Positions 17,901 to 33,000 of a DNA stretch of 36,830 nucleotides are shown piece after piece. Both the position numbers and the translations under genes were made by a program. Under the pieces are notes generated by a model. That model saw only the letters and a list, made by a program, of their open reading frames with translations, was not told where the DNA came from and searched no databases. Location: positions 1-36,830 of the IMG/VR virus record IMGVR_UViG_3300047564_001210; one strand, written 5' to 3'. Position 1 is the first letter of the stretch. Every line of letters starts with the position of its first letter. The stretch comes from a virus.

Positions 17901-17902
17901 AT

Positions 17903-18474: not shown

Positions 18475-18503
18475 AGTATACACTCACTCTACGAGATTGT
18501 CAA
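18475..18503 (-). promoter_or_regulatory. Early sigma70 promoter for 17820-18444
   Basis: TTGACA (18503-18498), 17 bp, TATACT (18480-18475). The -35 lies inside the last codons of the upstream gene. Confidence 0.75.
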
Positions 18504-18816: not shown

Positions 18817-18847
18817 ATTCAGCTCCTTAGTGTGTTAGTGTTCTTAC

Positions 18848-18876
18848 AGTATAGCGCCACTTGGTGGTTTTGTCAA
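18848..18876 (-). promoter_or_regulatory. Early sigma70 promoter for 18484-18816
   Basis: TTGACA (18876-18871), 17 bp, TATACT (18853-18848). It contains the stop TGA of the upstream gene. Confidence 0.8.
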
Positions 18877-19088
18877 GCTCTTTCAAACATCCTGATCAGT
18901 TCGTTGTGTAAAAACGACACCTCATCACGCTCCACATAGAAGTCTGTGCGTGGGTCGTAGTAAGAACCTTCCTTTGGATCGTAGTACAAGATCCTGCCGT
19001 TAGCAAAGACATAAGGACCTTCCAATCCCTTTCTAGGACCGTAACCTTTAAGTAGGTCTTCTGTCTTACCTAGAACCTTGTAGCCCAT
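18873..19088 (-). CDS. Small hypothetical protein
   Basis: 71 residues from ATG 19088, chosen because GGAG lies six bases upstream and the previous stop joins it as TGATATG. Middle rich in Gly and Tyr (ILYYDPKEGSYYDPRTDFY). The stop TGA is inside the next promoter's -35. Confidence 0.75.
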   Translation of the reverse strand: MGYKVLGKTEDLLKGYGPRKGLEGPYVFANGRILYYDPKEGSYYDPRTDFYVERDEVSFLHNELIRMFERA

Positions 19089-19089
19089 A

Positions 19090-19380
19090 TCAGTCTCCTG
19101 AATCAATTTGAAAACGATCTCCACACTCACTGCAGGTGTATTCTGTGAGACATCGACCTGCTGACCGTCCGGAGTATGAATGCTTGCAGGGCTCTCCTGC
19201 TCTGTTCAATCGGACTTGACCTTTTGGTTTTCCGAACATATACTGACCACCGCAATTGGTGCAGGGCACGGTGTCTGTGCCCTTGTCATAGCCAGCGATA
19301 ACATTCTTGTATCGCTCCATACTGATCGGCACTGCGACTCTGCCGCTGCCGTTGCAAACTGGACAAGTTCCGTATTCCAT
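19090..19380 (-). CDS. DnaJ-type zinc-finger protein
   Basis: 96 residues. CPVCNGSG at 6-13 is the DnaJ zinc-repeat motif, followed by CTNCGG and a C-terminal CSECGD with further Cys/His (CKHSYS), enough for two zinc sites. It is likely a zinc ribbon that binds nucleic acid or protein. It is part of a four-gene unit. Confidence 0.8.
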   Translation of the reverse strand: MEYGTCPVCNGSGRVAVPISMERYKNVIAGYDKGTDTVPCTNCGGQYMFGKPKGQVRLNRAGEPCKHSYSGRSAGRCLTEYTCSECGDRFQIDSGD

Positions 19381-19383
19381 AAT

Positions 19384-19488
19384 TTAATCTATAAAAATCC
19401 AGTATGTGCCCAACAGCACGGCATAGATCGCCGCTGCCTGTACCACATACTTGAGTTCAAACCATTCAACCAATTCTTTTATTGTCAT
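19384..19488 (-). CDS. Small single-segment membrane protein (34 residues)
   Basis: MTIKELVEWFELKY then a hydrophobic stretch VVQAAAIYAVLLGTYWIFI and a final Asp. GAGG seven bases before the ATG lies in the end of the preceding gene. Probably an inner-membrane peptide. Confidence 0.6.
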   Translation of the reverse strand: MTIKELVEWFELKYVVQAAAIYAVLLGTYWIFID

Positions 19489-19490
19489 GA

Positions 19491-19745
19491 TTAAGCCTCG
19501 ACAAAGTTAATGCTGGGGTCGAGAGCCTTAAGCTCATTGGCCACAGCAGTGAGTTCACGGTAACGACTACGCACCTGTGAGGCAGACAGCTCGCCATCAC
19601 AAGTCAAGTTCTCTGGACTTAAGGCACTGTCGATGATCTCTGCGATGCGCTGACGATCTGCAGCCACGGTCAAGTCCAAAGCCTTGATACCGAACACCGA
19701 ATTGAATTGATTGCGTTGCTTGACGAATTGAAGTAGTGCTTTCAT
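19491..19745 (-). CDS. Small hypothetical protein
   Basis: 84 residues, helical, with a basic N terminus and SASQVRSRYRELTAVANELK. First gene of a four-gene unit; AAGGAGCAGAA precedes the ATG. Not recognised. Confidence 0.75.
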   Translation of the reverse strand: MKALLQFVKQRNQFNSVFGIKALDLTVAADRQRIAEIIDSALSPENLTCDGELSASQVRSRYRELTAVANELKALDPSINFVEA

Positions 19746-19774
19746 TTCTGCTCCTTGTTTAACAATGTTCCACT

Positions 19775-19803
19775 AGTATACTGCCAGTGGTTTTATCTGT
19801 CAA
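19775..19803 (-). promoter_or_regulatory. Early sigma70 promoter for 18873-19745
   Basis: TTGACA (19803-19798), 17 bp, TATACT (19780-19775). Confidence 0.75.
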
Positions 19804-19822
19804 GAGTTTTCTAAGATTATTC

Positions 19823-19840
19823 TGTTGTATTTTTACAACA
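19823..19840 (-). terminator. Recurrent GTTGTA/TACAAC hairpin after 19882-20277
   Basis: TGTTGTA, a short T/A loop, TACAACA. It is one of five such hairpins at the ends of transcription units, without a clear T-run. Confidence 0.45.
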
Positions 19841-19881
19841 ACCAGGCACTGTCAATCAGCTTACAGCGGGAAACACTGGTC

Positions 19882-20277
19882 CTACTCCACCATGCTTAGA
19901 TGCTTGCAGGACCTTCTGAATTGGAACCCTGGGCAGCTACAATGGTACCGGCTTGACTCTTTGGTGACGACGTAGACGCTGCCTTTGCTTCCCGGGATTT
20001 CCCACCTTGCTCTACTTGAAACTTCTGCTTCTCCAGCAAGGACATCAGTTCCATCCAAGGATGTGATACTGTGGACATGATCAATTGGTATGATGCTGTC
20101 TGGGTGTTGCGGATTGCCTGTATGTAATTTGAATGTGCCTGGAGCATCCCATTTGTTGCTTGGAACCACTGTTCCAGTGTATTCGTGGTAATCATACTGA
20201 TCCTTTGCGAAATAAAAATGTGTCTTCCATTTAGTCACCACCCGTAGGTGTTGACCTACGAGCGGCAACTTATACAT
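19882..20277 (-). CDS. SWIM zinc-finger protein
   Basis: 131 residues. Near the C terminus Cys113-x-Cys115, then Cys124-x-His126 (YHCSCPGFQFRRSCKHL) is the SWIM finger, which binds DNA or protein. The N-terminal part is beta-rich with a WKTHFYFAKDQYDY segment. The start overlaps the preceding stop by one base (TAATG). Confidence 0.85.
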   Translation of the reverse strand: MYKLPLVGQHLRVVTKWKTHFYFAKDQYDYHEYTGTVVPSNKWDAPGTFKLHTGNPQHPDSIIPIDHVHSITSLDGTDVLAGEAEVSSRARWEIPGSKGSVYVVTKESSRYHCSCPGFQFRRSCKHLSMVE

Positions 20278-20621
20278 TAGAAGGATGCGTCTTCGAGATC
20301 AGCTTCTACTTTATCTGCCTTAGCCTTAGGGGCCTTGGCACTCTTAGTAGGCTTGGCGGGCTGTAGCTCCACCTTACGTTTAGCAGCTTCTGCTTGAATG
20401 GCAGCAGCTTTATCGAGATCACCATCGGAGAAGTCGATGCTGATCAAGTAACTAACGATCTGTTCCTTGGTCATGGCATGCGGCAACTCGATAAGATCGA
20501 TGTTGGTATGACCACCCTTGAGCAAGACCTTAACACGTGTCATGTCGTTGGCGAAACGAACCTTAGTAGAACCATTGGGCAAAGTACTAGTACCTGCAAC
20601 TGCGTAAGTCGATTGAGACAT
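20277..20621 (-). CDS. Hypothetical protein with a Lys/Ala-rich tail
   Basis: 114 residues. The first 75 are folded-looking; from about 84 the sequence is a Lys-Ala-Pro repeat (KPTKSAKAPKAKADK), probably disordered, with an acidic end. It is driven by the only fully consensus promoter in the window and coupled to the SWIM-finger gene. Confidence 0.78.
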   Translation of the reverse strand: MSQSTYAVAGTSTLPNGSTKVRFANDMTRVKVLLKGGHTNIDLIELPHAMTKEQIVSYLISIDFSDGDLDKAAAIQAEAAKRKVELQPAKPTKSAKAPKAKADKVEADLEDASF

Positions 20622-20668
20622 TACATTTCCTTTCTATGTGTGTGTATACTGGACCATCCAGTATTAAT

Positions 20669-20697
20669 ATTATACAGTGTTTCGAAAAATTTGTCAA
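20669..20697 (-). promoter_or_regulatory. Perfect-consensus sigma70 promoter for 19882-20621
   Basis: TTGACA (20697-20692), 17 bp, TATAAT (20674-20669). An ACTGG/CCAGT hairpin lies in the leader (20648-20662). Confidence 0.85.
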
Positions 20698-20700
20698 CCA

Positions 20701-20826
20701 TTATTTGACTGCTTCTTTCGAAACTGACTGCACCTTCTGGACACCATTGTCCAAAACTTTGGCCAATCCGGTGAACCCGATATTGGCAACTACGATCCCA
20801 ATTACAATACCAATCAATAACTGCAT
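20701..20826 (-). CDS. Small single-segment membrane protein (41 residues)
   Basis: MQLLIGIVIGIVVANIGF followed by a soluble, charged tail ending SKEAVK. AGAAGGAG lies eight bases before the ATG. It follows the tRNA gene in the same unit. Confidence 0.65.
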   Translation of the reverse strand: MQLLIGIVIGIVVANIGFTGLAKVLDNGVQKVQSVSKEAVK

Positions 20827-20845
20827 GACTGACTCCTTCTGTGTG

Positions 20846-20923
<78 letters not shown>

Positions 20924-20930
20924 GTTAAAT

Positions 20931-21359
20931 TTAATCAGCTTCGAAACAAAAATCTTCAAACATGGCCACTGGACCATCAAAAATACATTCGTTCTTATCA
21001 CTCATCGTAAGACCAAACATATTACTACCTCTATCTTTGACCATTACGCAGAGCTCACTATCCTTTTCGTAGACGTGGTACTCATAGTCCTGACCGCAGT
21101 CCGTAGCTTCAACGCTGTGGATGTAAAAGCCACCCACGCTCTGCTTGAAGTGTGAGATCAACTGCGCAGCCAAGCAACCCATGCCGTTGGCAGTCTTGCG
21201 TGTCTCTCCTACTGCAATGCCATTAGTGATGGCAGCGAACTGCTGAAGAAACTCATAAAGCTCTGCACCATGACCTGTAGGATAGCCATCGTATTGACGA
21301 TAAAGATTGACTATTGGCTTACCGTGATCGTAAACAATAGTGAGGCAACGTGTTCCCAT
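20931..21359 (-). CDS. Conserved hypothetical protein
   Basis: 142 residues. The N-terminal MGTRCLTIVYDHGKPIVNL, then YRQYDGYPTGHG, is a well-conserved opening in proteins of many phages and bacteria; I know no function. It heads a unit that continues with the tRNA and a small membrane protein. Confidence 0.85.
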   Translation of the reverse strand: MGTRCLTIVYDHGKPIVNLYRQYDGYPTGHGAELYEFLQQFAAITNGIAVGETRKTANGMGCLAAQLISHFKQSVGGFYIHSVEATDCGQDYEYHVYEKDSELCVMVKDRGSNMFGLTMSDKNECIFDGPVAMFEDFCFEAD

Positions 21360-21389
21360 TTTTCGCTCCTTAGTTAACAGTATGTCTAA

Positions 21390-21418
21390 AGTATACTACC
21401 AAAATGGCCCTTTGTCAA
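21390..21418 (-). promoter_or_regulatory. Early sigma70 promoter for 20701-21359 and the tRNA
   Basis: TTGACA (21418-21413), 17 bp, TATACT (21395-21390). It contains the stop TGA of the upstream gene. Confidence 0.8.
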
Positions 21419-21894
21419 GAGCCAGTGCCCATATGAAGTTCATTTCCGTTCTTCAGTCGGAAGCCTTCGACGAAGATGTGATGATCGTCACCACTTTCCC
21501 GAATAGCAAGATCTGCGGCACTCCACAAGTCGATCCAGTTCGGACCCATCACTGGGTAGTGCTTACGACCATCACCCCAGTGCTGATCGTAGACTACGAA
21601 GCTGTCGCTGGGGAATGGGTGTGGTGTATAGAAGTCATCAATCTCGAACATGCTCCAAATGCTGCGGAACTTCATCTCTTGACGGACACTGGTATAGTAG
21701 TCGTGCTTGTGATCAAAAGCCTCAGAGTCTTGACGGTAAGCATCAGCCAAACCCTGCTCAAAACTTTGGATCACTGCCTCAAGACGCTCTACCTTAACCA
21801 TGCTCTGCTGCATGTCGCCTACGATGCTGCGCAACTCGCAGAGGGTGTTGTGAACAGTCTTGAAGTCTTCACTGTGTAGAGTAACTGTCTGCAT
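21415..21894 (-). CDS. Hypothetical protein
   Basis: 159 residues. The first 75 form a likely coiled coil (RSIVGDMQQSMVKVERLEAV), then an aromatic, acidic domain with DFYTPHPFPSDSFVVYD. AAGGAGCTTAAT overlaps the previous gene's end. The stop is inside the next -35 box. Confidence 0.78.
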   Translation of the reverse strand: MQTVTLHSEDFKTVHNTLCELRSIVGDMQQSMVKVERLEAVIQSFEQGLADAYRQDSEAFDHKHDYYTSVRQEMKFRSIWSMFEIDDFYTPHPFPSDSFVVYDQHWGDGRKHYPVMGPNWIDLWSAADLAIRESGDDHHIFVEGFRLKNGNELHMGTGS

Positions 21895-21895
21895 A

Positions 21896-22156
21896 TTAAG
21901 CTCCTTGAAAATAGACTGCTTGAATTTTATTTGCTACACGATCTTCGACATAAGCAATAGCACCCTCAAAAACTACATTGGGGTGATTAAGCACACGGTT
22001 GGCGATAATGCGCACACCGCGCTCGGAGACATTGACTGGGTAGCCTGGGTTGTTGGTCTCGGCACCCTGAGCTGTGTAATTGTACTTGCCCCGGCACCCG
22101 CACATACAACCTATACGTCCGGAATAAGTTTTGATGATGTTTTGATTGCTAAACAT
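21896..22156 (-). CDS. Small hypothetical protein with a Cys-rich turn
   Basis: 86 residues. GRIGCMCGCRGKYNY near 13-27 has three closely spaced cysteines that could bind a metal. The rest is alpha/beta (ERGVRIIANRVLNHPNVVFEG). First gene of a two-gene unit. Confidence 0.78.
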   Translation of the reverse strand: MFSNQNIIKTYSGRIGCMCGCRGKYNYTAQGAETNNPGYPVNVSERGVRIIANRVLNHPNVVFEGAIAYVEDRVANKIQAVYFQGA

Positions 22157-22184
22157 TTTCGCTCCTTTGTTTTACTATGCCTAC

Positions 22185-22213
22185 AGTATAGCACCGATAT
22201 TACCGGCTGTCAA
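22185..22213 (-). promoter_or_regulatory. Early sigma70 promoter for 21415-22156
   Basis: TTGACA (22213-22208), 17 bp, TATACT (22190-22185). Confidence 0.8.
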
Positions 22214-22228
22214 CCGTTTTGTTGAATA

Positions 22229-22247
22229 CCCATACAGGTTGTATGGG
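22229..22247 (-). terminator. Hairpin after 22249-22494
   Basis: CCCATAC, five bases, GTATGGG, just after the stop codon. No strong T-run. Confidence 0.5.
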
Positions 22248-22248
22248 A

Positions 22249-22494
22249 TTAAAAGTCTGCTGTAAGCTCTCCAGTGGATTGATCTAAACTTACAAATACC
22301 TTACCCACTTCATGGTCTCCAGTGCCTGCTTCGTCAAAGTAGGTTACCTTGTAGCAGAACTGCCCACCATTGGTAATGCCTAGGAACTTGGCAGTCTCAA
22401 AGGCACACATGGTATAGCCCGATGTGTCAAGGACCCTAGCTAGGTCTTTGGGAGTGAAGTTTATAAGTTCTATGAGAGTGTCTGCTGTAATCAT
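22249..22494 (-). CDS. Small hypothetical protein
   Basis: 81 residues, alpha/beta, with GGQFCYKVTYFDEAGTGDHE then VGKVFVSLDQSTGELTADF, a likely small beta sheet. Own promoter; AAAGGAGCAGAC before the ATG. Confidence 0.75.
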   Translation of the reverse strand: MITADTLIELINFTPKDLARVLDTSGYTMCAFETAKFLGITNGGQFCYKVTYFDEAGTGDHEVGKVFVSLDQSTGELTADF

Positions 22495-22518
22495 TGTCTG
22501 CTCCTTTAGTATGTCATT

Positions 22519-22547
22519 AGTATAGCATCGGTTTTACCAAATGTCAA
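22519..22547 (-). promoter_or_regulatory. Early sigma70 promoter for 22249-22494
   Basis: TTGACA (22547-22542), 17 bp, TATACT (22524-22519). Confidence 0.8.
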
Positions 22548-22560
22548 CCGAAAAAAAGAG

Positions 22561-22580
22561 GTGTTGTAAAAATACAACAC
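22561..22580 (-). terminator. Recurrent GTTGTA/TACAAC hairpin after 22615-23304
   Basis: GTGTTGT, six-base A/T loop, ACAACAC. The loop is in the opposite orientation to the other copies, so here the transcript carries the T-rich loop. Confidence 0.45.
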
Positions 22581-22614
22581 CCCATATAAAGCCCCCATTG
22601 CAGGGGCGGAGCAA

Positions 22615-23304
22615 TTAATCAAACTTGATAGGCTGGGGCTTGTTCAAGCCCTTCTTCTCTGCGCCGTCCTCTAGAAACTCTTCCAGCTCGTCGGCTTCCT
22701 CTTCGTTCTCTGCTTCCCACTCGGCCATGCCGCAGGAAATATTCCACAGGTCATCCATTTCGTCTCCAATAAGGTCGCGAACATCCTTGCTGGTGTAGCC
22801 GTTGAGCTCAAAGCAATCATCATACAGCATCTCACCACTATCGAACTCTGCACGACCAACGAAGCACATGCCACTCTCGTAATAGTCTAGCGTCATGCTC
22901 ACATCTGGATTCTGCTCTGCATAGAAAGCAAATGCTGTCACAGGTGGTGACCAGGCACTGTCGAACCATCCAGTGATACGAGCATGAGGACCTTTGCCAC
23001 CATTGTCATAGTTGCCATCCTCGTCTTGCTCGAACTCTAGACCTTCAGGACTGACTTCCCATTTGGTTCCCCAGTTCTGGACACGCCAGTCCCACCAGCT
23101 CTGTCCTTTAGCCACAGGCTCGTTGTTGCCTACAATACCTGGGAATGTGGGTAGCACATCCACTTCATCATAGTTAGGTTCGGAACGCATGCCACGAAGC
23201 AACCCACCACCTTGGTCTTCATCCTTGACAGCCTGCTCCCACAGAGCCTTGATCTTATCACGGGGACCTACAATCTGAATTGAGTTATTACACCAGTTAG
23301 GCAT
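22615..23304 (-). CDS. Api92-like (DUF1281) ferredoxin-fold protein
   Basis: 229 residues. The opening MPNWCNNSIQIVGP is the hallmark of Api92-like phage and plasmid proteins, which have a ferredoxin-like fold and unknown function. Further family-like segments are WWDWRVQNWGTKWE and the aromatic FDSAWSPPV. The C terminus is very acidic. The start is ATG 23304, because AAAGGAG is upstream and the two residues before it in a longer frame would use TTG. Confidence 0.88.
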   Translation of the reverse strand: MPNWCNNSIQIVGPRDKIKALWEQAVKDEDQGGGLLRGMRSEPNYDEVDVLPTFPGIVGNNEPVAKGQSWWDWRVQNWGTKWEVSPEGLEFEQDEDGNYDNGGKGPHARITGWFDSAWSPPVTAFAFYAEQNPDVSMTLDYYESGMCFVGRAEFDSGEMLYDDCFELNGYTSKDVRDLIGDEMDDLWNISCGMAEWEAENEEEADELEEFLEDGAEKKGLNKPQPIKFD

Positions 23305-23464
23305 TGTCAATCTCCTTTAGTTGTTTAGCAATTTCAATTTCTTCAGCCAGTTTATTAGCAGTGGATCCTAAGATCCTTAAGATCTTAATCAGTTCTTCAT
23401 CTGGAAGGTCCTGGGCCTGCACTTCACCCAAGCACCTTTCCATTAATTCAAACTTACCTTTCAT
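23297..23464 (-). CDS. Small helical hypothetical protein (55 residues)
   Basis: MKGKFELMERCLGEVQAQDL and then a charged helical remainder with an Ile/Leu heptad-like pattern. Its ATG overlaps the previous stop (ATGA) and its end overlaps the next start by eight bases, so it is well embedded in a three-gene operon. Confidence 0.7.
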   Translation of the reverse strand: MKGKFELMERCLGEVQAQDLPDEELIKILRILGSTANKLAEEIEIAKQLKEIDNA

Positions 23465-23733
23465 GCGGCACTCAGCATGTTAGCAGGCACACGCCACATA
23501 CCTTGCTGGGTAGCCACTGTCACATACTTACGACCCACCTTACTCACCGTGCCCTTGTAGGTCATGCCATTCTTGCTAGAAGTGAATTGAACATTGGCAC
23601 CAGTTCGCATGGTAAAGATGTTCTTCTGTGTGATACGGCTACGAGCAAACTTGACTGCATCCATGATGCTGTTCAGCTCATCGTTAGTGAAGTTACCTTG
23701 CAGGATCTCTGCATTGACAGTTTGAATTGACAT
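23461..23733 (-). CDS. KOW/SH3-like small protein (putative)
   Basis: 90 residues. After an N-terminal helix, residues 44-85 (GANVQFTSSKNGMTYKGTV, then KYVTVATQQGMWRVPANML) look like a small SH3-type barrel as in KOW domains. It could bind RNA or protein; function unknown. First gene of the operon, AAGGAGCGTGAA before the ATG. Confidence 0.78.
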   Translation of the reverse strand: MSIQTVNAEILQGNFTNDELNSIMDAVKFARSRITQKNIFTMRTGANVQFTSSKNGMTYKGTVSKVGRKYVTVATQQGMWRVPANMLSAA

Positions 23734-23763
23734 TTCACGCTCCTTGTTTAACAGTATGCCTAA

Positions 23764-23792
23764 AGTATAGCACCGGTTTTACCAGTTGTCAA
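23764..23792 (-). promoter_or_regulatory. Early sigma70 promoter for 22615-23733
   Basis: TTGACA (23792-23787), 17 bp, TATACT (23769-23764). Confidence 0.8.
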
Positions 23793-23801
23793 GTCTTTTG
23801 A

Positions 23802-23819
23802 TGTTGTATTTTTACAACA
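23802..23819 (-). terminator. Recurrent GTTGTA/TACAAC hairpin at the end of 23812-24084
   Basis: TGTTGTA, loop, TACAACA; overlaps the stop codon of the gene it would end. Confidence 0.45.
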
Positions 23820-24084
23820 CCCCTTCTTCTTCCAACTCCTTGACCACTTCGTTGAATAGGTCATCTAGTTCTTCCGGAGTCATCCTGTTGTTTTTTCGCA
23901 ACTGCCCGGCACTCCTACCTTTGGTAAGAGCTGACCCTACGACATAGACTCGGGGGTAATGTTCTGCACAATAGCTCTTACCTGGGAGGCTAGGGTGACC
24001 ACAAGGAGTGGTAGGACCATCCCTTGGGTCTTGATCAGAGCCTAACCATTCGCAAGGTACTACACGAGTGGACTTTAAGATCAT
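23812..24084 (-). CDS. Zinc-binding small protein, GcrA-tail-like
   Basis: 90 residues. Cys11, Cys28, His30, Cys39 and His42 sit in PCEWL..., TPCGHPSLPGKSYCAEHY, a pattern resembling the C-terminal zinc knuckle of GcrA-like regulators. The C-terminal half is helical and acidic. Second gene after the AAA+ ATPase. Confidence 0.75.
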   Translation of the reverse strand: MILKSTRVVPCEWLGSDQDPRDGPTTPCGHPSLPGKSYCAEHYPRVYVVGSALTKGRSAGQLRKNNRMTPEELDDLFNEVVKELEEEGVL

Positions 24085-24085
24085 A

Positions 24086-24940
24086 TTAAGCTCGCTTCAT
24101 ACAAGTAAGAGCAGCCACAGACTTCCACTTCTCAGGCATAGCTGCACGGAGGTCTGCAACCTTAATCACCATACGCAGACTCAGCTCGCGCATCTTGTCC
24201 TTGTTGCTTTCAATAAACTGTACCACCTCAGCCTTAGCTTCGTCAGTGAGTTCGTATACATCCAACATACCATCATTGACAATCTGCTTGATACGCAAAA
24301 TCTTCTCGCGAGTAGTGTCAATGGTAAGATCCAGATAGTGACAGCGCGACTCTAGTGCATCCAAGTGATCACGCAGCTTCTTAGAGCGCACATGCTCGAA
24401 CTTGATGTTAGTAATGAAGATGGCACTGCCGCAGAACTCAAAGCTGTTGGGGATACCTTCTGAGCGCAGGATGCGTGAGTCAGTGTTCCAGCTAATGGTA
24501 CGCTTCTTAGAACTATCTAGGGCAGCTTTCAAAATATTAAGGCTCAACTCGTCCAACAGTACTGAGTCACAGTCGTCGAACACTAGTACATTACCTTTCT
24601 TGCTAAACTCATAGAGCTTGCTGTACAAGCCAATGGCACTCATCGCACCCTTGACAATCTCGTAACGCGGCTTGCGTTCACCCATCTTGTCAAAGAGATC
24701 GTCCTTTGTAAGTACTGCCTCAACGCCAAAGGATTTACCAACGCCGGGAGGGCCGCTGACGATCATAGCACGGACATCACCTTTGCGTACACCTTTGGTC
24801 ATATCTTCGAGGATAGTGAATCGTTCTTTGATACGATCCATAATCTGCTGATCAGTTTCTTTAGCCACCTCACGCTCGCGCTTCTTGATAGCCTCAGTGT
24901 CGAAGTCCAAAAGTTTCGTTGCGTTTGCACTCTTTGCCAT
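24086..24940 (-). CDS. AAA+ ATPase
   Basis: 284 residues. Walker A GPPGVGKS at 63-70, Walker B LVFDDCD at about 119-125, a sensor-like IFITN near 175, and an arginine in LESRCH that could be the finger. The C-terminal part is a helical lid. It is related to helicase-loader or clamp-loader-like ATPases of phages; the exact partner is unknown. It is not gp44, as the motifs and length differ. Confidence 0.88.
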   Translation of the reverse strand: MAKSANATKLLDFDTEAIKKREREVAKETDQQIMDRIKERFTILEDMTKGVRKGDVRAMIVSGPPGVGKSFGVEAVLTKDDLFDKMGERKPRYEIVKGAMSAIGLYSKLYEFSKKGNVLVFDDCDSVLLDELSLNILKAALDSSKKRTISWNTDSRILRSEGIPNSFEFCGSAIFITNIKFEHVRSKKLRDHLDALESRCHYLDLTIDTTREKILRIKQIVNDGMLDVYELTDEAKAEVVQFIESNKDKMRELSLRMVIKVADLRAAMPEKWKSVAALTCMKRA

Positions 24941-24971
24941 TACATGCTCCTGTGTGTTATTTAAAGTCTGT

Positions 24972-24999
24972 ATTATACACGAAAAAAAGGTTTTGTCAA
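24972..24999 (-). promoter_or_regulatory. Early sigma70 promoter for 23812-24940
   Basis: TTGACA (24999-24994), 16 bp, TATAAT (24977-24972). It contains the stop TGA of the upstream gene. Confidence 0.8.
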
Positions 25000-25691
25000 G
25001 CCTGTTTCATAAAGACCACAAAACCCGTACGGTCTTTCTTAGCACGGCCCTTAGCCTTCAAGCCCAAGATCACACCCTTGGGATCCAAGAAGCGAAGGTC
25101 TGTTTCATCCGCATTGAACACGGGACGACCCATATAAGTCTCTGGGATTTCATCAAAGACCACAGTCACGTTCATGCCTTGTGCAAGAGCTTTCTGTACA
25201 TCAGCATCGTTACCATCTGCGGCACTGAAGGTCAAGTGGTAGTTGGGCAAGTGACTAGTCTTGCGACCTAGGACCTTAGTATAGTCATAGAACTGAACTT
25301 GTGGAAACTTCTCGATGATAAAGTACTTCTCCCAGCTAAGGTCACTAGTACCATTCAAACGGAACACGGGAGTCAAACCCTGACGTTCTGCATAGCGAAC
25401 GGCACGAGCAATGTCTTGCTCCAAGTCCTGCAGGAAACTATTACGATGTTCGTAGAAGTAACGAGTCTTGCGCTTACGGGCTTCCTGTATCATGTTAGTA
25501 CTGGCACCCTTCTTGAACATACCACCACGTCCGGCAGTGTTCAAGCATGCCGCCTTACAGCCTGCTGTGGCCTTGGGGCAAGTATTGTAGCCGCTCACAT
25601 CTGCAGGAGCAAGGTGAAGGATGAAGCTGAGGTAACCCAGCTTAGTACCTTTTTGGATTTTGGGGTTGGCAGTGGAAAGTAATTTAAACAT
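24996..25691 (-). CDS. Gp88-like phage protein
   Basis: 231 residues. CPKATAGCKAACLNTAGRG at 37-55 and the following basic helix with FYEHRN are the signature of the phage gp88 family (known in mycobacteriophages and many environmental phages). The function is not established; the cysteines suggest a metal or cluster site. Own promoter. The stop TGA lies inside the next TTGACA. Confidence 0.88.
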   Translation of the reverse strand: MFKLLSTANPKIQKGTKLGYLSFILHLAPADVSGYNTCPKATAGCKAACLNTAGRGGMFKKGASTNMIQEARKRKTRYFYEHRNSFLQDLEQDIARAVRYAERQGLTPVFRLNGTSDLSWEKYFIIEKFPQVQFYDYTKVLGRKTSHLPNYHLTFSAADGNDADVQKALAQGMNVTVVFDEIPETYMGRPVFNADETDLRFLDPKGVILGLKAKGRAKKDRTGFVVFMKQA

Positions 25692-25719
25692 CGTCGCTCC
25701 TTTGTTTTAGTATGTCCAC

Positions 25720-25748
25720 AGTATAGCACCGGTTTTACCAGTTGTCAA
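25720..25748 (-). promoter_or_regulatory. Early sigma70 promoter for 24996-25691
   Basis: TTGACA (25748-25743), 17 bp, TATACT (25725-25720). Confidence 0.8.
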
Positions 25749-25756
25749 CCGAAATA

Positions 25757-25861
25757 TCAAAAGACCATGCCAGCAATGTGGTTACCTAATAGGACTAACC
25801 CTGCGCCCAAGAACATGGTCACCCATATGAGTACAGCCAGTATCACGGCACTCTTACTCAT
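25757..25861 (-). CDS. Small single-segment membrane protein (34 residues)
   Basis: MSKSAVILAVLIWVTMFLGA continues hydrophobic to the end, probably one long or two short membrane helices. The start overlaps the previous stop in ATGAGTAA. It ends just before the next -35. Confidence 0.65.
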   Translation of the reverse strand: MSKSAVILAVLIWVTMFLGAGLVLLGNHIAGMVF

Positions 25862-26087
25862 ACCAATCATCCTTAATGGACTTGTCCATGTATTCGATTT
25901 CGTCATCAATCACAGTAGTGGCCACCACTCGGGGGTAGTCGTCTGACTCTGTAAAATTACCAAAGTCTGTGAGATAAGCATAGTCCTGTAGGAACTTGGA
26001 CTGATCCAAGTAGGGTTCTAAACTTCTGATGGTGATGCGAACAGTGGTAACTACCTCATGCTCATAGATTTTATTGTCCAGTTCCAT
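25854..26087 (-). CDS. Small acidic hypothetical protein
   Basis: 77 residues, acidic, with EVVTTVRITIRSLEP then VVATTVIDDEIEYMD. AAGGAG six bases before the ATG overlaps the preceding stop. Middle gene of a three-gene unit. Confidence 0.77.
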   Translation of the reverse strand: MELDNKIYEHEVVTTVRITIRSLEPYLDQSKFLQDYAYLTDFGNFTESDDYPRVVATTVIDDEIEYMDKSIKDDWYE

Positions 26088-26097
26088 GGTCTACTCC

Positions 26098-26325
26098 TTA
26101 GTCCAATAGGGTCATATATGCTTCGGGATTCTTACGGCTGAACCAGTCCAATGCACGACGCAGACTAGTATAGTCACCCATGAGCTCGCAGCCCTTGAGG
26201 TAGTCGTATACAGCCACCTCTTCAGGAGTCAACTCCGCAGTCTCGCCACTGAATGGATTCTGTACAGTCACAGGCTGCTCATCATATACTTGGATGCCGG
26301 GAAAAAGTTCTTGGATAGTCTTCAT
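26098..26325 (-). CDS. Small conserved hypothetical protein
   Basis: 75 residues. NPFSGETAELTPEEVAVYDY is a motif I associate with conserved small proteins in environmental phages. The C terminus is helical (LRRALDWFSRKNPEAYMTLL). First gene of its unit. Confidence 0.8.
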   Translation of the reverse strand: MKTIQELFPGIQVYDEQPVTVQNPFSGETAELTPEEVAVYDYLKGCELMGDYTSLRRALDWFSRKNPEAYMTLLD

Positions 26326-26354
26326 ATCATGCTCCTTTTTGTTAGTGTGCCTAC

Positions 26355-26383
26355 AGTATACAGTCGGTTTTATCTTTTGTCAA
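26355..26383 (-). promoter_or_regulatory. Early sigma70 promoter for 25757-26325
   Basis: TTGACA (26383-26378), 17 bp, TATACT (26360-26355). Confidence 0.8.
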
Positions 26384-26391
26384 GCCCCGCC

Positions 26392-26413
26392 GGTGTTGTA
26401 TTTTCACAACACC
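26392..26413 (-). terminator. Recurrent GTTGTA-type hairpin after 26413-26694
   Basis: GGTGTTGT, six-base loop, ACAACACC, touching the stop codon of the gene it would end. Confidence 0.5.
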
Positions 26414-26694
26414 TAGGCACTCCAATAAGACTCGCTGCTGGGGCTGCAATAGTAAGGAGTATCATACCTCTCCTTGAACTCAGCGCCGCCCATCAAGTTC
26501 CTACGGGTCACCCAAGTCTCATGAAGCTCCATTCGATACCGGGGCTGTGGATATAGTCGTGATGCCAAGTCCCGCATCTCCTCCTGCATCCATTTTGTTT
26601 CCACATCCTTGTATTCATACTTGCCTTGGAGCCGCTGACCCGCTTTGGTACGGCGATCCCGTACATAGACTTCTAAGGTATAGTCTGTGCGCAT
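26413..26694 (-). CDS. Small basic hypothetical protein
   Basis: 93 residues, many Arg and Tyr (VYVRDRRTKAGQRLQGKYEY). Start overlaps the preceding stop as TAATG. Not recognised. Confidence 0.75.
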   Translation of the reverse strand: MRTDYTLEVYVRDRRTKAGQRLQGKYEYKDVETKWMQEEMRDLASRLYPQPRYRMELHETWVTRRNLMGGAEFKERYDTPYYCSPSSESYWSA

Positions 26695-26936
26695 TAGAAC
26701 TCCTCCCCATAATAGCCATAGTCTTCGTCCGTGCCCCAGCCGGCACTGGCCAGAGCATCACCGTCATCCTCGTAGTCAGGTTCATACTGATCCTGCTCCA
26801 TGTCCATCATGTAGTCGAAGACCTCGTTGACCGTCTCTATGTCGCAGTCAAACCGTTCTGCGATCTGGGCAAAGCTCAACTCGCCTGTACGGATCTCATC
26901 CGCGATATCAAATACGAAGTTCTTGGTTGCGATCAT
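26694..26936 (-). CDS. Small protein with a helix-turn-helix-like segment and an acidic tail
   Basis: 80 residues. SFAQIAERFDCDIETVNEVF (about 20-39) has helix-turn-helix spacing. The tail is very acidic (EPDYEDDGDALAS), as in DNA-mimic or regulator proteins. First of a two-gene unit. Confidence 0.75.
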   Translation of the reverse strand: MIATKNFVFDIADEIRTGELSFAQIAERFDCDIETVNEVFDYMMDMEQDQYEPDYEDDGDALASAGWGTDEDYGYYGEEF

Positions 26937-26963
26937 GTCAGCTCCTTCTGTTAGTGTGCCTAC

Positions 26964-26992
26964 AGTATACTACCGGAAATTCCTTTTGTCAA
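26964..26992 (-). promoter_or_regulatory. Early sigma70 promoter for 26413-26936
   Basis: TTGACA (26992-26987), 17 bp, TATACT (26969-26964). It contains the stop TGA of the upstream gene. Confidence 0.8.
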
Positions 26993-27300
26993 CTCAATTT
27001 TTGCATAACCCTAGCCAGTACAGGGTTATTCTTTAAGGCCTGATCCCAAGCCTCCTCCATGACCTGATCCGCTGCATTGGCCACGATATGCCGCTGCTGG
27101 TGCTCTACTAGGAAGTCGTGCTTGAACCTAGCTTCTTCCTCAGTGTCATATCTAGCCACCACATGACTCAGTCCATGGTCAGGGAATATGCAGGTCTCGA
27201 ACTTGATGTCATCACCAGGGAGTCTAGGCAACTCTACGGTGCTGATCTCCTGATCCCCCACGCGGGTCACTGCTATTTGTCGTCCAGGAAATATCTGCAT
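26989..27300 (-). CDS. Hypothetical protein
   Basis: 103 residues from ATG 27300, chosen from the recurrent TGATATG junction. Mixed alpha/beta (MQIFPGRQIAVTRVGDQE). An 8-bp inverted repeat ATAACCCT/AGGGTTAT (27005-27029) lies in the last codons. Not recognised. Confidence 0.72.
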   Translation of the reverse strand: MQIFPGRQIAVTRVGDQEISTVELPRLPGDDIKFETCIFPDHGLSHVVARYDTEEEARFKHDFLVEHQQRHIVANAADQVMEEAWDQALKNNPVLARVMQKLS

Positions 27301-27301
27301 A

Positions 27302-27532
27302 TCAATACCAATTCTTCTTGTCACCATACTGCTCATTATAGTCATAGCCTGCATGGTAGGATTGGATCTGCTGTCTAGTCATGAATCGTTCTTCGATCTC
27401 CATGCTCTGATGCGTGGCATCTGTGAACATATGTGGACGGCGTGGTCGCCCATAGTACGAGTCTGCACTACCACGATCAAAGGCCCCACCATGGCGTTGA
27501 TCATACTGTTCACGCATATTTTCTGCAATCAT
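27302..27532 (-). CDS. Small hypothetical protein
   Basis: 76 residues from ATG 27532, with AAGGAGCTGAT upstream. Rich in Tyr, Arg, Asp (YYGRPRRPHMF). The last gene of the array before the non-coding region. Confidence 0.72.
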   Translation of the reverse strand: MIAENMREQYDQRHGGAFDRGSADSYYGRPRRPHMFTDATHQSMEIEERFMTRQQIQSYHAGYDYNEQYGDKKNWY

Positions 27533-27559
27533 ATCAGCTCCTTCTGTTAGTGTGCCTAC

Positions 27560-27588
27560 AGTATAAGACAAAATCCCGGTTTTGTCAA
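27560..27588 (-). promoter_or_regulatory. Early sigma70 promoter for 26989-27532
   Basis: TTGACA (27588-27583), 17 bp, TATACT (27565-27560). Confidence 0.8.
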
Positions 27589-27596
27589 GACATTTA

Positions 27597-27618
27597 GATG
27601 TTGCGTTTCCACAACATC
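27597..27618. terminator. GTTGTA-type hairpin at the edge of the origin region
   Basis: GATGTTG, eight-base loop, CAACATC. It resembles the other hairpins and would stop transcripts coming from the right. Confidence 0.4.
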
Positions 27619-27667
27619 ACCGGCACTGCTATGACCCTACTGGCGTCATGGGTATCAGACATTTTGG

Positions 27668-27696
27668 TTGACAATAGGCAAAACCGATGTTATACT
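27668..27696 (+). promoter_or_regulatory. + strand sigma70 promoter into the origin-like region
   Basis: TTGACA (27668-27673), 17 bp, TATACT (27691-27696). It is the only cassette-type promoter pointing right. Confidence 0.8.
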
Positions 27697-27702
27697 GTAG
27701 AC

Positions 27703-27815
27703 ATAATAAAAAAGCAGGTAGACTGTTGATAGATTCGAAGAGCTATACTCGGGATGGACGTGGAGGGTACCTGCCGTTTCTATAAGGTGGAAAAATAAAA
27801 AAATTCCTCACCTTT
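27703..27815 (+). ncRNA. Candidate small RNA leading toward the DnaA boxes
   Basis: Transcription from 27668 would begin near 27703. A 7-bp stem GCAGGTA/TACCTGC (27714-27774) closes a 47-base folded loop. A second stem AAGGTG/CACCTT (27784-27814) encloses an almost pure A/T loop. The only frame inside is 14 codons (ATG 27754), so this is probably an RNA gene, for example an antisense, regulatory or primer RNA. Confidence 0.5.
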
Positions 27816-27848
27816 CGTCACCAAACTGCCAAAATCCTCCAGGCCCAG

Positions 27849-27944
27849 TTATCCACAGCTTGTCCACAGCTTGTCCACAACCGCCTGTGGATATCTCTGA
27901 ACTTATCCACAGCTTGTCCACAATCAGTTCACAGGTTATCCACA
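27849..27944. other. DnaA-box array, possible replication origin
   Basis: Exact TTATCCACA at 27849, 27903 and 27936. TTGTCCACA at 27860, 27871 and 27914. An inverted ATATCCACA occupies 27886-27894. A weak CAGTTCACA at 27925 fills the gap. Starts in each half are 11 bp apart, about one helical turn. An AT-rich hairpin loop at 27790-27805 precedes the array and could be the unwinding element. Confidence 0.8.
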
Positions 27945-27949
27945 GCCCA

Positions 27950-28240
27950 TCAATACTTCAAAGGTTGGCAAGGTCCGCCGCAATGCTGGTGTCTCGCCCG
28001 GATCAATCGCTCCAAATCAGACAATTCCGACTCTTTTGGTCTGCGCTGTATCTGTCCATATTGACTCTGAGGTTCTCCACGACTAGTACACTGAGGATCT
28101 CCAGGTCTATATCTACTATTAGCTGTAGCACAGTTAGTGATATACCAGTTGTCATACTCAGTAGTGCGTACTATGAGCTCAGTGCCAGCACAGCCCGTGA
28201 GCATAGCTGCCAACACTGTGTATAAGATTAGGTTTTTCAC
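27950..28240 (-). CDS. Lipoprotein
   Basis: 96 residues from GTG 28240 (AAGGAG upstream). Residues 1-17 form a lipoprotein signal with lipobox LTGC, the cysteine being residue 17. The mature part is short, polar, Gln/Arg-rich and contains several cysteines. It would be lipid-anchored, most likely in the outer membrane since no retention signal is obvious. An o-spanin-type lysis role is possible but unproven; no partner i-spanin is certain. Confidence 0.8.
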   Translation of the reverse strand: MKNLILYTVLAAMLTGCAGTELIVRTTEYDNWYITNCATANSRYRPGDPQCTSRGEPQSQYGQIQRRPKESELSDLERLIRARHQHCGGPCQPLKY

Positions 28241-28276
28241 AGCCCGAGTCTCCTTACTGTATATAGTATAGTGTAC

Positions 28277-28305
28277 AGTATACAGGATCCTGGTGGTTTT
28301 GTCAA
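28277..28305 (-). promoter_or_regulatory. Sigma70 promoter for the lipoprotein gene
   Basis: TTGACA (28305-28300), 17 bp, TATACT (28282-28277). Confidence 0.8.
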
Positions 28306-28619
28306 TGTCAGGAGGCATTTTCCGACCTAGAAAACGGTGGAAAACCCAGGATTTTCACATCATTCAAGGCAGGATTTAAGGATTTCCAGGCAGAATTCTG
28401 TAGATTTTTTCTGGTAGAGTCGTGGTCCTTTCGGGTAATGTTCAAATACTCTAACCCTAATCTACTCTGATCTACTCTGATCTACTCTAGCCCATTCTAT
28501 GTCTATCGTGTATTCGCTACAGCGGGAATATTTGCTGCCAGTGATTTCGATCTGTATATAGTCTTATACTACAGCGGGAATATACTGCGTTCAGCTCTGT
28601 GCTGGATTGCGCTCCGCCA

Positions 28620-28649
28620 TTGACTATTTCACTACAGCGGGAATATACT
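28620..28649 (+). promoter_or_regulatory. Sigma70-like promoter formed by the third repeat
   Basis: TTGACT (28620-28625), 18 bp, TATACT (28644-28649). The -10 is the end of the direct repeat. The ATG at 28659 follows with almost no leader. Confidence 0.5.
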
Positions 28650-28658
28650 AGTGTACAT

Positions 28659-28862
28659 ATGCTATACTTCCGTTGTTATCGCAGTTCTCATATTACCAAT
28701 GCTCTAGCTGATCAGCTGGCTCAGCAGGTACAACGTGTGGGTGGATGGTTCACTGTTAATCCCGGGGGTTTATATCTGTATATACCTGAGCCCAGTGTAT
28801 TTTGGTTTCAGCTTATTGATTCAGACATGGACAGAGTTCACAGTTTGGACTACGTCATGTAG
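28659..28862 (+). CDS. Small hypothetical protein
   Basis: 67 residues from ATG 28659 (MLYFRCYRSSHITNALADQL). A helix, then a strand pair WFTVNPGGLYLYIPEPS. The stop abuts the convergent gene's stop. Not recognised; no ribosome site. Confidence 0.55.
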   Translation: MLYFRCYRSSHITNALADQLAQQVQRVGGWFTVNPGGLYLYIPEPSVFWFQLIDSDMDRVHSLDYVM

Positions 28863-29003
28863 TCAGTGCTCTTCCAGTTGTTCACTCCAAGTATACACTA
28901 ATAGGAACAAGGGCAGTATAAACATCCAAGTCCATAATTGATCTCGTTGCATACCCAAGACTAGGAACAACCAAAATATCATTATTACTATGAATTTTAA
29001 CAT
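28863..29003 (-). CDS. Small membrane protein, two segments (46 residues)
   Basis: Hydrophobic MLKFIVIMIFWLFLVLG, the turn MQRDQ, then a second segment MFILPLFLLVY and a charged end. The hairpin topology is like small holins. Function unproven. It lies three bases after the next upstream gene. Confidence 0.6.
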   Translation of the reverse strand: MLKFIVIMIFWLFLVLGMQRDQLWTWMFILPLFLLVYTWSEQLEEH

Positions 29004-29006
29004 CTG

Positions 29007-29168
29007 TTAACCTCGTGGTCTACATTCAGCTACTAGTTTACTCTGCACCCGATCCAAACGCTGCTGCCATCTCTGGGCTTCAGCTCTGCACTCCTGTTCC
29101 TTTTGGTACTCAGTGTAGGCTGTATAGTTAGTGGGTTCAGATAACCAAAATACCAATATCCATATCAT
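29007..29168 (-). CDS. Small membrane-anchored protein (53 residues)
   Basis: A short hydrophobic start MIWILVFWL, then a charged helical, Gln/Glu/Arg-rich region with two cysteines. An N-in anchor with a soluble coiled part resembles a tiny i-spanin, but this is weak. Confidence 0.5.
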   Translation of the reverse strand: MIWILVFWLSEPTNYTAYTEYQKEQECRAEAQRWQQRLDRVQSKLVAECRPRG

Positions 29169-29189
29169 GGCTGTATTTACTTTTTGTCT

Positions 29190-29378
29190 TTAGCTCCTGC
29201 GGGCTCTTCGAGCACCAAAGGCTCTTGTGTATAAACTTTCGCTCCAGTCCCATTCTATTTTTCCGTTCTTTACCCATCCCCAAGTGCCATTGCTGTACAC
29301 ACGATCGCCTTCTCTGAGATCCTGCACTCTTTGCTCCTGGACCTGCCATTCTTTGAACTGGGGTTTAGGTCTGTGCAT
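29190..29378 (-). CDS. Small hypothetical protein, SH3-like
   Basis: 62 residues. LREGDRVYSNGTWGWVKNGK looks like a short SH3-type strand set. Basic C terminus. It overlaps the preceding gene by 14 bases. An alternative frame at 29137-29349 was rejected. Confidence 0.65.
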   Translation of the reverse strand: MHRPKPQFKEWQVQEQRVQDLREGDRVYSNGTWGWVKNGKIEWDWSESLYTRAFGARRARRS

Positions 29379-29838
29379 TTCTCTTCCTATTGAACTGTAT
29401 TATCACTGACTGAGTTCGGGCCGGTACTCGCTGGCCCAATTGTAACTCAAAACTGCCTGAGTGTTGCTCTAATTCACCTTGGGCTAGATAAAATATACCT
29501 GGACCCACTAGGTCTTGATCCGGGGGTATGATCTGCATCCTGACCTCGGGCAAGGGTTCACGGTTGTATCTCTGATCTAGACACAGCCAAATCACTGGCA
29601 CGCCGGGATCTACCTGCACCTGCCACTGACCTGCCTGCACTGGTGCTAGGTCTTGGCTGCAGGTGCCTGGTTGCCATCTAACTCCGCTGTCTTCCCTGCC
29701 CGAGCCCTGTACTATCATGGTGATCTGATCCAGCTGGCGTCTGCTGCCCGTGTAATTACAGTCTATTGTGATCTGGGCACCCGCGGGTATCTCTGTTTTA
29801 AACAGCAACCATCCATGACTTCGAATCCACTGCTTCAT
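29365..29838 (-). CDS. Hypothetical beta-rich protein
   Basis: 157 residues, beta-rich, Gln- and Pro-rich (GQWQVQVDPGVPVIWLCLDQ). No signal peptide. The ATG overlaps the previous stop (ATGA). Since it sits directly after the tail genes it may be a virion protein; this is inference. Confidence 0.75.
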   Translation of the reverse strand: MKQWIRSHGWLLFKTEIPAGAQITIDCNYTGSRRQLDQITMIVQGSGREDSGVRWQPGTCSQDLAPVQAGQWQVQVDPGVPVIWLCLDQRYNREPLPEVRMQIIPPDQDLVGPGIFYLAQGELEQHSGSFELQLGQRVPARTQSVIIQFNRKRNAQT

Positions 29839-30014
29839 CGTCTAGGTCCTGTGAGTTCTACTAGGAATGTGCTGTCCCGGGCCAACTCCACTGGCTGCAG
29901 GTCTGTGATGGTGTAGTCCTCCACCCCGGTGTCCAATACTGCCAGTAAACTCGCCAAGTCTAACTCTGATTGTTCACTGGGTCTCTGATCTGGGTAATCC
30001 ACTCTAAAGGTCAT
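29835..30014 (-). CDS. Small acidic hypothetical protein (59 residues)
   Basis: MTFRVDYPDQRPSEQSELDL followed by LASLLAVLDTGVEDYTITDL and a short end. The gap to the tail-protein stop is five bases and GAGGAG lies upstream of the ATG. Part of the tail operon. Confidence 0.65.
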   Translation of the reverse strand: MTFRVDYPDQRPSEQSELDLASLLAVLDTGVEDYTITDLQPVELARDSTFLVELTGPRR

Positions 30015-30019
30015 GTTCT

Positions 30020-33000
30020 TTAACTCCTCAAATAATAGTGCTTGAACGCTTGATTAAAATGCGTGTTAATACTGTTGGATTCTGGTGCATATATAGCCAG
30101 TCCTCCGATCTGTACTGACATAGAAGAATTAGAGTTCAATGTGGTATAGGTCTGAGTACCCCATGTGTATATAGTACTGGCATCCTGATCCAAGGCATGA
30201 TATGCTTCACCATCGCTCCATATGTCCATGCAACGGAACAAACCAGCACGGGCCGTGACTCGGAGGGGATCCACTGAGCCTAGACTAAATGTCACTGCAA
30301 GGGCTCCAAGACCTCCTCGCTGGGTACTGACCCTGAAGGTGCCACCAATGGTAGTGGGTACCCAATACGTGATATAGTAAACTTGATCCACTGTGACTGC
30401 TCCATTGAATCTATCCGAGAACACTATGGGTGCGCCCACGGCCACTGTGATGCGCTGACTGACTCCGGTGATCCAGTTGAAACTAAACAGTCCTGCACTG
30501 GCCGAGGTCACACTGACATCTGCCCAAAGGGGCAGGGGAGTGAAACGTCTAGTGTTGGCAGCGTCCTGAGTGTTGTCAGTGGCATTGTTGCTGCCACTGC
30601 TCTGGGTACTGCCCCATGTGTATACGCCGCCGTCCACACTCAAGCCCACGCCCACTCTACGACGGTTCAGGGCTTTGACAAATTTAACTGTGCTGAGACT
30701 GGCCACATTTTCTGACATGATATCGTTCAAGTTAGCTGTCTCGCCTCGGGCCAATGCACCAAATCTATAAGGTTGTATTGTGGTAGTGGTACTGGGTCCT
30801 TTGAATCCGCCACTGGTGTAACTGTAGCCTCGAGCTAATTCGTTGCCCCAACTGTGCAGCTGACCCGAAGTTTTCAGCGCAGTCCATACACCATCGCAGC
30901 CGTCTATATAGTCCCAATCCGCACTGCCCCCACCCCGAACTGTGGGCGCCGAATCCACGCTCAAAGAATTCATGAGGCTGTTGCTGTTGTTCAACACAGT
31001 GCTGGCGCCACTGTTGGTATTAGTGATAGTGGTGCTGGTGGCATATCTAAAATCGCCGGCAGCATACAGATTATTGTCCAAACCTATGCCATAGAAAGCA
31101 TGACCTATGAACCCATAACCATATGAACTGGCCCTGTCAAAAAAGAATCCTGTGGTTGTTTGATAGTTGGGATATTTGCTTTCAGCAGTGAAGCTGATGT
31201 CTTTGAATCCTACACTGAATCCACTGAACAATCTAGTCACTGTGGGGAAATGTATCTGTCTATCTATTCCTGAATATACATCTACTATAGCGGACTTATT
31301 GATTCTAAAGGCAGTGTTATTATCCAGTCGACCAGCAGTGTCAGTGGATCTAGTGGGTGAGTACACAATATTCCACCAAAGAGCGTTGACATCTGTGCTA
31401 GAGTAAGGATCCGCTGTTTGAGTAGTGGGAGTAGTCTCCATGTCAGCTAAAAATCTACCAAATCTAACCTGGTGATCACCAAAGTAGTCTCTGGTATTTC
31501 TGCCCATGGTAATCACATGAAAATCTAATGACGGGGAACCAGCCTCGCTGAACCGTAATTGAACACAGCCGTTCAACCAACTATCAAGGTACTGTCCAGT
31601 ACTGTTATAAGGGTCGAAGGTTTCGTTGGTAGTGATATTGAATGCTGTGCCTCCAGGATTAGTGCTAAGAGTACAGGTAACGTTGTAATAAACACTATTA
31701 TTAGGGTCTAAGACCGGAGCTGACACTGATCTAACAAAATATCTTGTGCCCACTGCCAAACCACCCACAGAAGTAGTGACTTTAAATGAATCTCCTACAT
31801 TGATAGTCTGAGAAAGAGAATAGGTTGCAATAGTTATAGTATCATTGGTTGCATTGGTGTTGACAATACCTGCCCAAGGTCCATACGTCCCAGATAAAAG
31901 TAACGTCAATGTTACAACTCTACTTGGAGGTGAACCACTGAGAACAGCGTAAACTTCAACGGGAGAATAATTTGTTATCTCTATAACTTCATCATTGATC
32001 AAAATATACGTGTTGGAACTGGTATTATCAGTTCCTAGGATAGAGCATATTCTGATCAAATTAGTGGGCACTGCATTACCATAAGTTATATTAAAATCTA
32101 GGTAGAATTTCCAGAATGACTGACCGTCATTGCTGACTGTTATATTTTTTGATGTTGTAATAGATGTAGCTACAAAAGTGGTCGAGGCCAGGGTATAATC
32201 TTTGAAAAGAGGACTGGTCTGTCTATATGCAGTGTTTACGCCTATACCTCTAGGTCCCGTAAAACTACTGCCACCTAACAGTCTACTGTCATTGATATGA
32301 CCCAATACATATAATGTGCCATCGTTTTTTAGAATCATGAATCCACCGGCACGTGACCCTGCGGGTATAACTTTCTTCCAATCACTATCAGTACCAATTC
32401 GTGTGGGTGATAATTTATAATATTGTAGGTAATCAGTGTCTTCACTGAATACTTTATAGTCTTCTAATATGATATAATGGGAAGTACTGCCATTAGAAAG
32501 ATCTATGCTAGGATCCATGCCCCAATAGTATAATCCACCGTCGCTGCCCACTGCCAATACTGATGCGCAGGAACTGGCAATGGATTTATAATTTTCTGGT
32601 AAGGTATATCCTAAACCATACTCGATACGTGGTTCTGGAATATATCTAGTTCCGTTGGCTGCAACGGATGTTAATGCCCTTCCAGTGCCAGCGGCAGTAT
32701 AAACAAACCCTGTCTCACTGGTACCTCCTAACACTTGAGTAGTGAGGTTATAATGTGTTAAGTTACCCACAGCATTGGCTGTTGGCCCATTGGGAACATT
32801 TTTACCTAGTTCGTCAAAAGTTAATAATTTGTAGTTATAGAAACCAGGTAGCTTTACGCTACTAGACGAAAAATGAATATCTATTTTGGCGGCGGCATTT
32901 TCAAAGAATCTGGCTTCCCAAGTTAAGTTTGGAGTTCCTGGTATCCCAAGGGTACTGGGTTCAGTATTATATGTAGAAGATTGAACAGTACCTTCAAAAC

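Follow-up and report, generated by a model that had tools for sequence, protein, structure and literature searches.

A conserved promoter-RNA unit followed by phased DnaA boxes marks a candidate replication origin of a T4-type jumbo phage

How genome replication starts in large T4-type phages is, to our knowledge, largely unknown. T4 itself needs no DnaA for its replication, and we know of no T4-type phage that uses host DnaA to start replication, so what is a phased array of DnaA boxes doing behind a promoter in such a genome? A search of the literature found no direct report of phage DnaA-box origins or of phage DnaA titration. The stretch of DNA analyzed here (the window, G000) is an IMG/VR virus record of 36,830 bases that encodes T4-type UvsW, gp61, and gp41. 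Its gp41 has its closest named match, at 53% identity across 84% of the protein, among Pseudomonas jumbo phages of the PA5oct group, and related contigs from metagenomes are as long as 354 kb; the window therefore most likely represents part of a jumbo phage genome. The region itself has no nucleotide match to named phages. The relatives compared are all metagenomic contigs, and G051, G052, and G053 among them were retrieved by searches with the downstream repeat and the neighboring nrdC.10-like gene. The G+C content of the window goes from about 33% over the replication genes (1–12000) to about 47% over the small-gene region (12000–31000), and a tRNA-Met (CAT) gene on the minus strand (20846–20923) resembles the tRNA-Met of Acinetobacter phages.

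An earlier note on this DNA had described seven good DnaA boxes and a weak one, spaced by 11 bp in two halves, and this description proved accurate: seven boxes with at most one mismatch lie within 97 bp (27849–27944), plus one weak box. The left half (27849–27879, plus strand) is made of TTATCCACA at 27849 and TTGTCCACA at 27860 and 27871, in 11-bp steps, and the right half (27903–27944, plus strand) of TTATCCACA at 27903 and 27936, TTGTCCACA at 27914, and the weak box CAGTTCACA at 27925, so that offsets run 0/11/22 and 54/65/76/87 in 11-bp steps. The window also has an inverted box, ATATCCACA (27886–27894, minus strand), and all four phages compared (the window, G051, G052, and G053) keep an inverted box here. 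At this mismatch level 0.16 box per 130 bp would be expected against the seven observed, and in 300 dinucleotide-model shuffles the densest 100 bp held at most four boxes (0/300 exceeded four). A DnaA-dependent origin would be expected to show a box cluster well above chance and to keep the array and its spacing in relatives, and both were found. In G051, G052, and G053 the lattice has offsets 0, 11, 23 (minus strand), 40, 51, 62, 73, 84, and 95; the positions in the window match once the insertion of one 11-bp box and 3 bp is allowed for. The lattice positions that hold a good box differ among the phages, boxes coming and going; since box turnover on a fixed lattice is what selection for phased protein binding would leave, the lattice appears to be under such selection. 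The search for a DnaA C-terminal domain came up empty in 13 related records, so the reader of the boxes would be host DnaA, and for the same reason the recruitment of host DnaA that had been proposed fits. Phased DnaA triples occur in at least 120 IMG/VR contigs, most of them without similarity to the window phage over the stretch compared, and therefore arrays alone are not special. What stands out is the combination of an array with a constant RNA.

The plus-strand promoter announced in the earlier note before the array is indeed there, as a near-perfect sigma-70 type TTGACA-N17-TATACT (27668–27696, plus strand) that reads toward the array, and a minus-strand gene starting at 27571 borders the promoter-array region on one side. 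The ends of the predicted non-coding transcript (27703–27830, plus strand) are deduced from this promoter and from an A/T-rich hairpin, AAGGTGGAA..TTCCTCACCTT (27784–27814, plus strand). The claim of a folded RNA with an A/T-rich hairpin stood in part: the hairpin is present, but the whole transcript, folded as a single sequence, does no better than shuffles (z −0.55). The A-rich stretch at the hairpin is kept in four sequences with loose pairing only; the hairpin is a possible easily melted segment, and we infer that its loop could act as a primer. The conserved part of the RNA lies upstream of it, as a core, ATTCGAAGAGCTATACTCGGGATGGACGTGGAGGG (27729–27778, plus strand; nhmmer E 6e-11), predicted to form a hairpin and a pseudoknot. 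This core is G-rich (59% G), which would be compatible with R-loop formation.

The earlier note had missed that the RNA between promoter and array is a member of a conserved family, with 50 distinct copies at E <= 1e-3, carried by jumbo T4-type phages that are distant relatives of PA5oct, in one or two copies per genome, the second copy of some phages lying about 2–3 kb from the first. The family is previously undescribed, and Rfam 15 gave no match above gathering score and none with a credible E-value. Among 80 loci fetched solely for their gp88-like gene, the core profile matches 49 at E < 0.5 and 40 at E < 1e-4, and it matches 0 of 80 gp41-centered loci. The gp88-like gene (Pfam PF17338; 24996–25691, minus strand, in the window) is the usual divergent neighbor of the RNA. 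By profile search the core occurs once each in the window, G051, G052, G053, G054, and G071; it is absent from the whole of PA5oct, the whole of G027, and the checked regions of XacN1 and RAS14. A match in the L583 genome was discarded as a chance one, lying in a dnaN-like coding sequence (identity judged by eye). The family can be searched for by the core TTCGAACAGN5CTGGGGRTGGACGNNGAGG.

The predicted structure, a 3-bp hairpin and a 4-bp pseudoknot made by the hairpin loop, is supported by covariation, with 84% of cells paired vs 65% in shuffles; two-sided changes affect 48 cells, where shuffles give 13.7 and slid controls never more than 20. A promoter (sigma-70, at least 10 of 12 matches, within 125 nt upstream of the RNA) is present in all 42 testable family members vs 1.8% of shuffled controls. 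In 42 of 48 cases the gene that precedes the RNA, often gp88, is divergent from it, and the first ORF of at least 100 aa to follow on the RNA strand is about 1.5 kb away, hence the RNA is not a plain leader. A tiny ORF starting from its RTGGAC was also considered and rejected, neither its length nor its codons past the first few being kept.

RNA and array travel together. Absence of the array from close relatives had been named in the earlier note as grounds against its reading, and the comparison did not refute it: G051, G052, and G053, the three closest relatives, keep the RNA and array along with the elements downstream of them, and the promoter is seen in G052 and G053, G051 being cut there by a contig edge. 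More divergent phages keep RNA and array as well, as in G071 (gp41 65% identical), where the same core is followed by seven perfect boxes, and this recurrence of the unit in divergent phages supports the origin reading. The density of perfect TTATNCACA is 3.46 per kb in the 450 bp that follow the RNA vs 0.047 per kb in the rest of these loci, in a set that includes one locus, L062, found solely through its array. These perfect boxes point in the direction of the RNA by 62:12, with spacing peaks at 11–12 and 22. In the gp88-anchored set, chosen regardless of arrays, phased DnaA pairs were found in 15 of 43 loci with the RNA vs 1 of 37 without it, mostly 26–170 bp from the RNA; as the 15/43 count contains the near-duplicates L511/L526 and already described relatives, and given common descent, it overstates independent events.

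This geometry weighs on the main rival to the origin reading, namely that the array titrates or inactivates host DnaA, binding it or promoting ATP hydrolysis in a datA-like manner, whereupon host initiation stops and the phage replicates from elsewhere. The many consensus boxes, often perfect, together with the absence of a detected phage DnaA among the 13 related records, are in keeping with it; plasmid-borne DnaA boxes titrate DnaA in Escherichia coli, and datA works via DnaA-ATP hydrolysis (PMC5835720). A sponge, however, needs neither 11-bp phasing nor the RNA-matched orientation (62:12), nor a placement 26–170 bp after one promoter and its RNA, and seven to nine boxes per genome copy would titrate only weakly until the phage had multiplied, which makes this rival unlikely in our eyes. 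That the RNA would act alone, e.g., as a cis antiterminator or as a small RNA against the host, the repeats being unrelated neighbors in a gene-poor region, seems very improbable. It is true that the RNA always lies directly at its promoter, as do the put RNAs of phage HK022, and that in most phages it comes without phased DnaA pairs; yet in those large genomes that were scanned the core occurs at the promoter-RNA locus only, no same-strand ORF follows for about 1.5 kb, and the statistical linkage to phased repeats is strong.

About two thirds of the RNA-bearing loci have no phased DnaA pair, and DnaA therefore cannot be essential to the role of the RNA in all these phages. Among loci without two forward boxes, tandem repeats of 10–12 or 21–23 bp were found nearby in 8 of 37 vs 1 of 134 control stretches, the single positive control being a DnaA pair and two of the eight being reverse-strand DnaA boxes. 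In contig CAINIH010000104.1 of a Methylophilaceae bin (L582:2708-2838), the RNA is followed by an 11-bp array of 7.9 copies of CTCTGAGGTAG, a repeat that is not a DnaA box; this suggests that another protein may bind the array and points to a possible group of hosts, at a guess freshwater Betaproteobacteria. Such repeats also touch on a further explanation, in which array-bound DnaA would be a roadblock or switch that ties an early non-coding RNA to the DnaA state of the host, replication being uninvolved. The array does lie on a transcribed stretch downstream of a strong promoter, and DnaA represses promoters such as mioC (PMC5835720); a roadblock would nonetheless need one or two boxes and not a phased lattice of seven to nine, and the non-DnaA phased repeats at the locus in other phages suit initiator arrays better, so we consider this explanation distinctly improbable. 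Four loci without forward DnaA boxes (L508, L512, L546, and L555) carry 10-bp tandem repeats, e.g., GAAAAGTGTT, about 400–500 bp after the RNA. In G027 and L514, arrays are present and the RNA is not detectable, and L455, L481, L090, L023, L068, and L126, otherwise unlike the window phage, have phased DnaA arrays and gp88-like genes.

Beyond the array, a small lipoprotein-like gene (27950–28240, minus strand) with a lipobox-like LTGC lies between array and repeats, antisense to any RNA read-through; its Pfam LPAM_1 match (E 0.009) is below cut-off. It is followed by a block, AGNGTCGTGGTCCNNTCGGG...CAAATACT (28416–28451, plus strand), found in the clade of the window only, and by the two families of direct repeats that the earlier note had reported. 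Both are real, but only one is conserved: TCTACTCTGA, three copies with a 10-bp period at 28461, 28471, and 28481 (to 28490, plus strand), is restricted to the window, whereas the iteron-like CTACAGCGGGAAT (CTACAGCGGGAATAT three times), at 28517, 28569, and 28632 (to 28644, plus strand), is conserved, with further copies on the same strand in relatives. A conserved small ORF of 67 aa with no Pfam family comes after the repeats (28659–28862, plus strand). The lipoprotein-like gene, the 28416–28451 block, the same-strand repeats, and the small plus-strand ORF are all kept in G051, G052, and G053. A motif that resembles CTACAGCGGGAAT of the window, CAGCGGGG, forms a one-strand cluster just before a strand switch in G027 (250437-257591) and G054 (230033-231074), even inside opposite-strand genes.

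Does base composition point to the same place? The origin-like reading of the earlier note, which gains support from the conservation of array and RNA, finds no such echo in the window, whose GC skew has no sign change and which has no strand switch at the array, another feature that had been overlooked. In large-locus tests the skew minimum was at the RNA or within about 3.6 kb of it in 11 of 16; it was elsewhere in the window, L513, L539, and L507, where most genes past the RNA lie on the minus strand. The local minimum of G053 coincides with a repeat situated 0.8 kb after the RNA, and G051 also has a minimum at the site (contig edge). The G027 array, an independent phased one (TTATCCACAGC, CTATCCACAGC, and CTATCCACA at 257478), is within 200 bp of the most prominent local GC-skew minimum of its contig. 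Because skew tracks gene strand, it is weak evidence for an origin; as an independent proof it was rejected, following gene strand and failing in the window. In PA5oct, a 1.3-kb intergenic stretch near nrdC.10 (NC_071039.1:245979-247298) with a local GC-skew minimum carries the RNA-seq annotated lncRNA ncRNA004; it is possibly the counterpart locus, and the core RNA and the boxes have no match there.

Taken as a whole, the locus probably serves a jumbo T4-type phage as an early origin of replication or as a site where an initiator is loaded. Host RNA polymerase would start at 27668–27696, and its product would be a short non-coding RNA, structured and rich in G; by passing through the A/T-rich segment (27784–27814) into the array, the polymerase would open the DNA and possibly leave an R-loop from which the leading strand is primed, as happens at T4 oriF. 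Host DnaA, set head to tail on one helix face by the 11-bp phased boxes, would stabilize the opening and help load the helicase, while a second factor would bind the downstream direct repeats. The promoter sequence, the conserved covarying RNA, the array lattice, the tight RNA-array linkage, the occurrence of one locus per genome, and the failure to find a DnaA gene in the phages are observed; DnaA binding, opening, R-loop, priming, initiation, and helicase loading are the steps that we infer. A search for the T4 gp59 loader gave no match, but it gave none in control genomes either and so carries no information, and matches to IstB/DnaC-like ATPases were weak and far from the locus. Tentatively, and with less confidence than in the origin itself, we suggest that this jumbo T4-type lineage might have a modular RNA-primed origin, in which a constant new pseudoknot RNA is combined with an exchangeable phased initiator array, host DnaA having been recruited more than once; the exchangeable part would be host DnaA boxes in about one third of the sampled loci and other 10–11 bp repeats elsewhere. 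With its defined promoter, RNA, and DnaA array, this one conserved locus offers a specific place for testing how replication starts.

Among known systems, T4 provides the parts of such a scheme: R-loops prime replication at oriF, oriE combines iterons with an early promoter, origins lie close to strand switches, and UvsW removes R-loops (PMC3016281). Of what a T4-type R-loop origin calls for, the window encodes gp41, gp61, and UvsW and has a promoter and an A/T-rich hairpin, at which an R-loop may form. The window resembles oriE (12-nt iterons, early promoter, RepEB) in its early-type promoter, direct repeats, small nearby genes, and T4-type replisome genes, but the cited review makes no mention of DnaA and describes no covarying RNA for oriE (PMC3016281). 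As at oriF and oriG, a promoter transcript is predicted to run into a possibly easily melted segment, and UvsW, which unwinds such R-loops, is encoded in the window; oriF, however, depends on a MotA middle promoter and works without any specific RNA sequence, whereas the window has a sigma-70 type promoter, a conserved structured RNA, and DnaA boxes. DnaA boxes and direct repeats near an A/T-rich segment are also found at iteron plasmid origins (RK2, P1, pSC101), where it can make a difference how the boxes beside the iterons are placed and oriented (PMC4980987). Unlike these plasmids, the window has no identified Rep initiator gene, the 67-aa ORF adjoining the repeats having no Pfam match, its array and repeats are separated by about 570 bp that include a gene, and a conserved RNA is added. 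Finally, clusters of DnaA boxes are shared with oriC, datA, and DARS of E. coli, but at oriC the strong boxes stand far apart and weak arrays fill the intervals, and datA combines two consensus boxes with four that have one misfit each and needs an IHF site between two of its boxes, whereas the window array is regularly phased and most of its boxes match the consensus or miss it by one.
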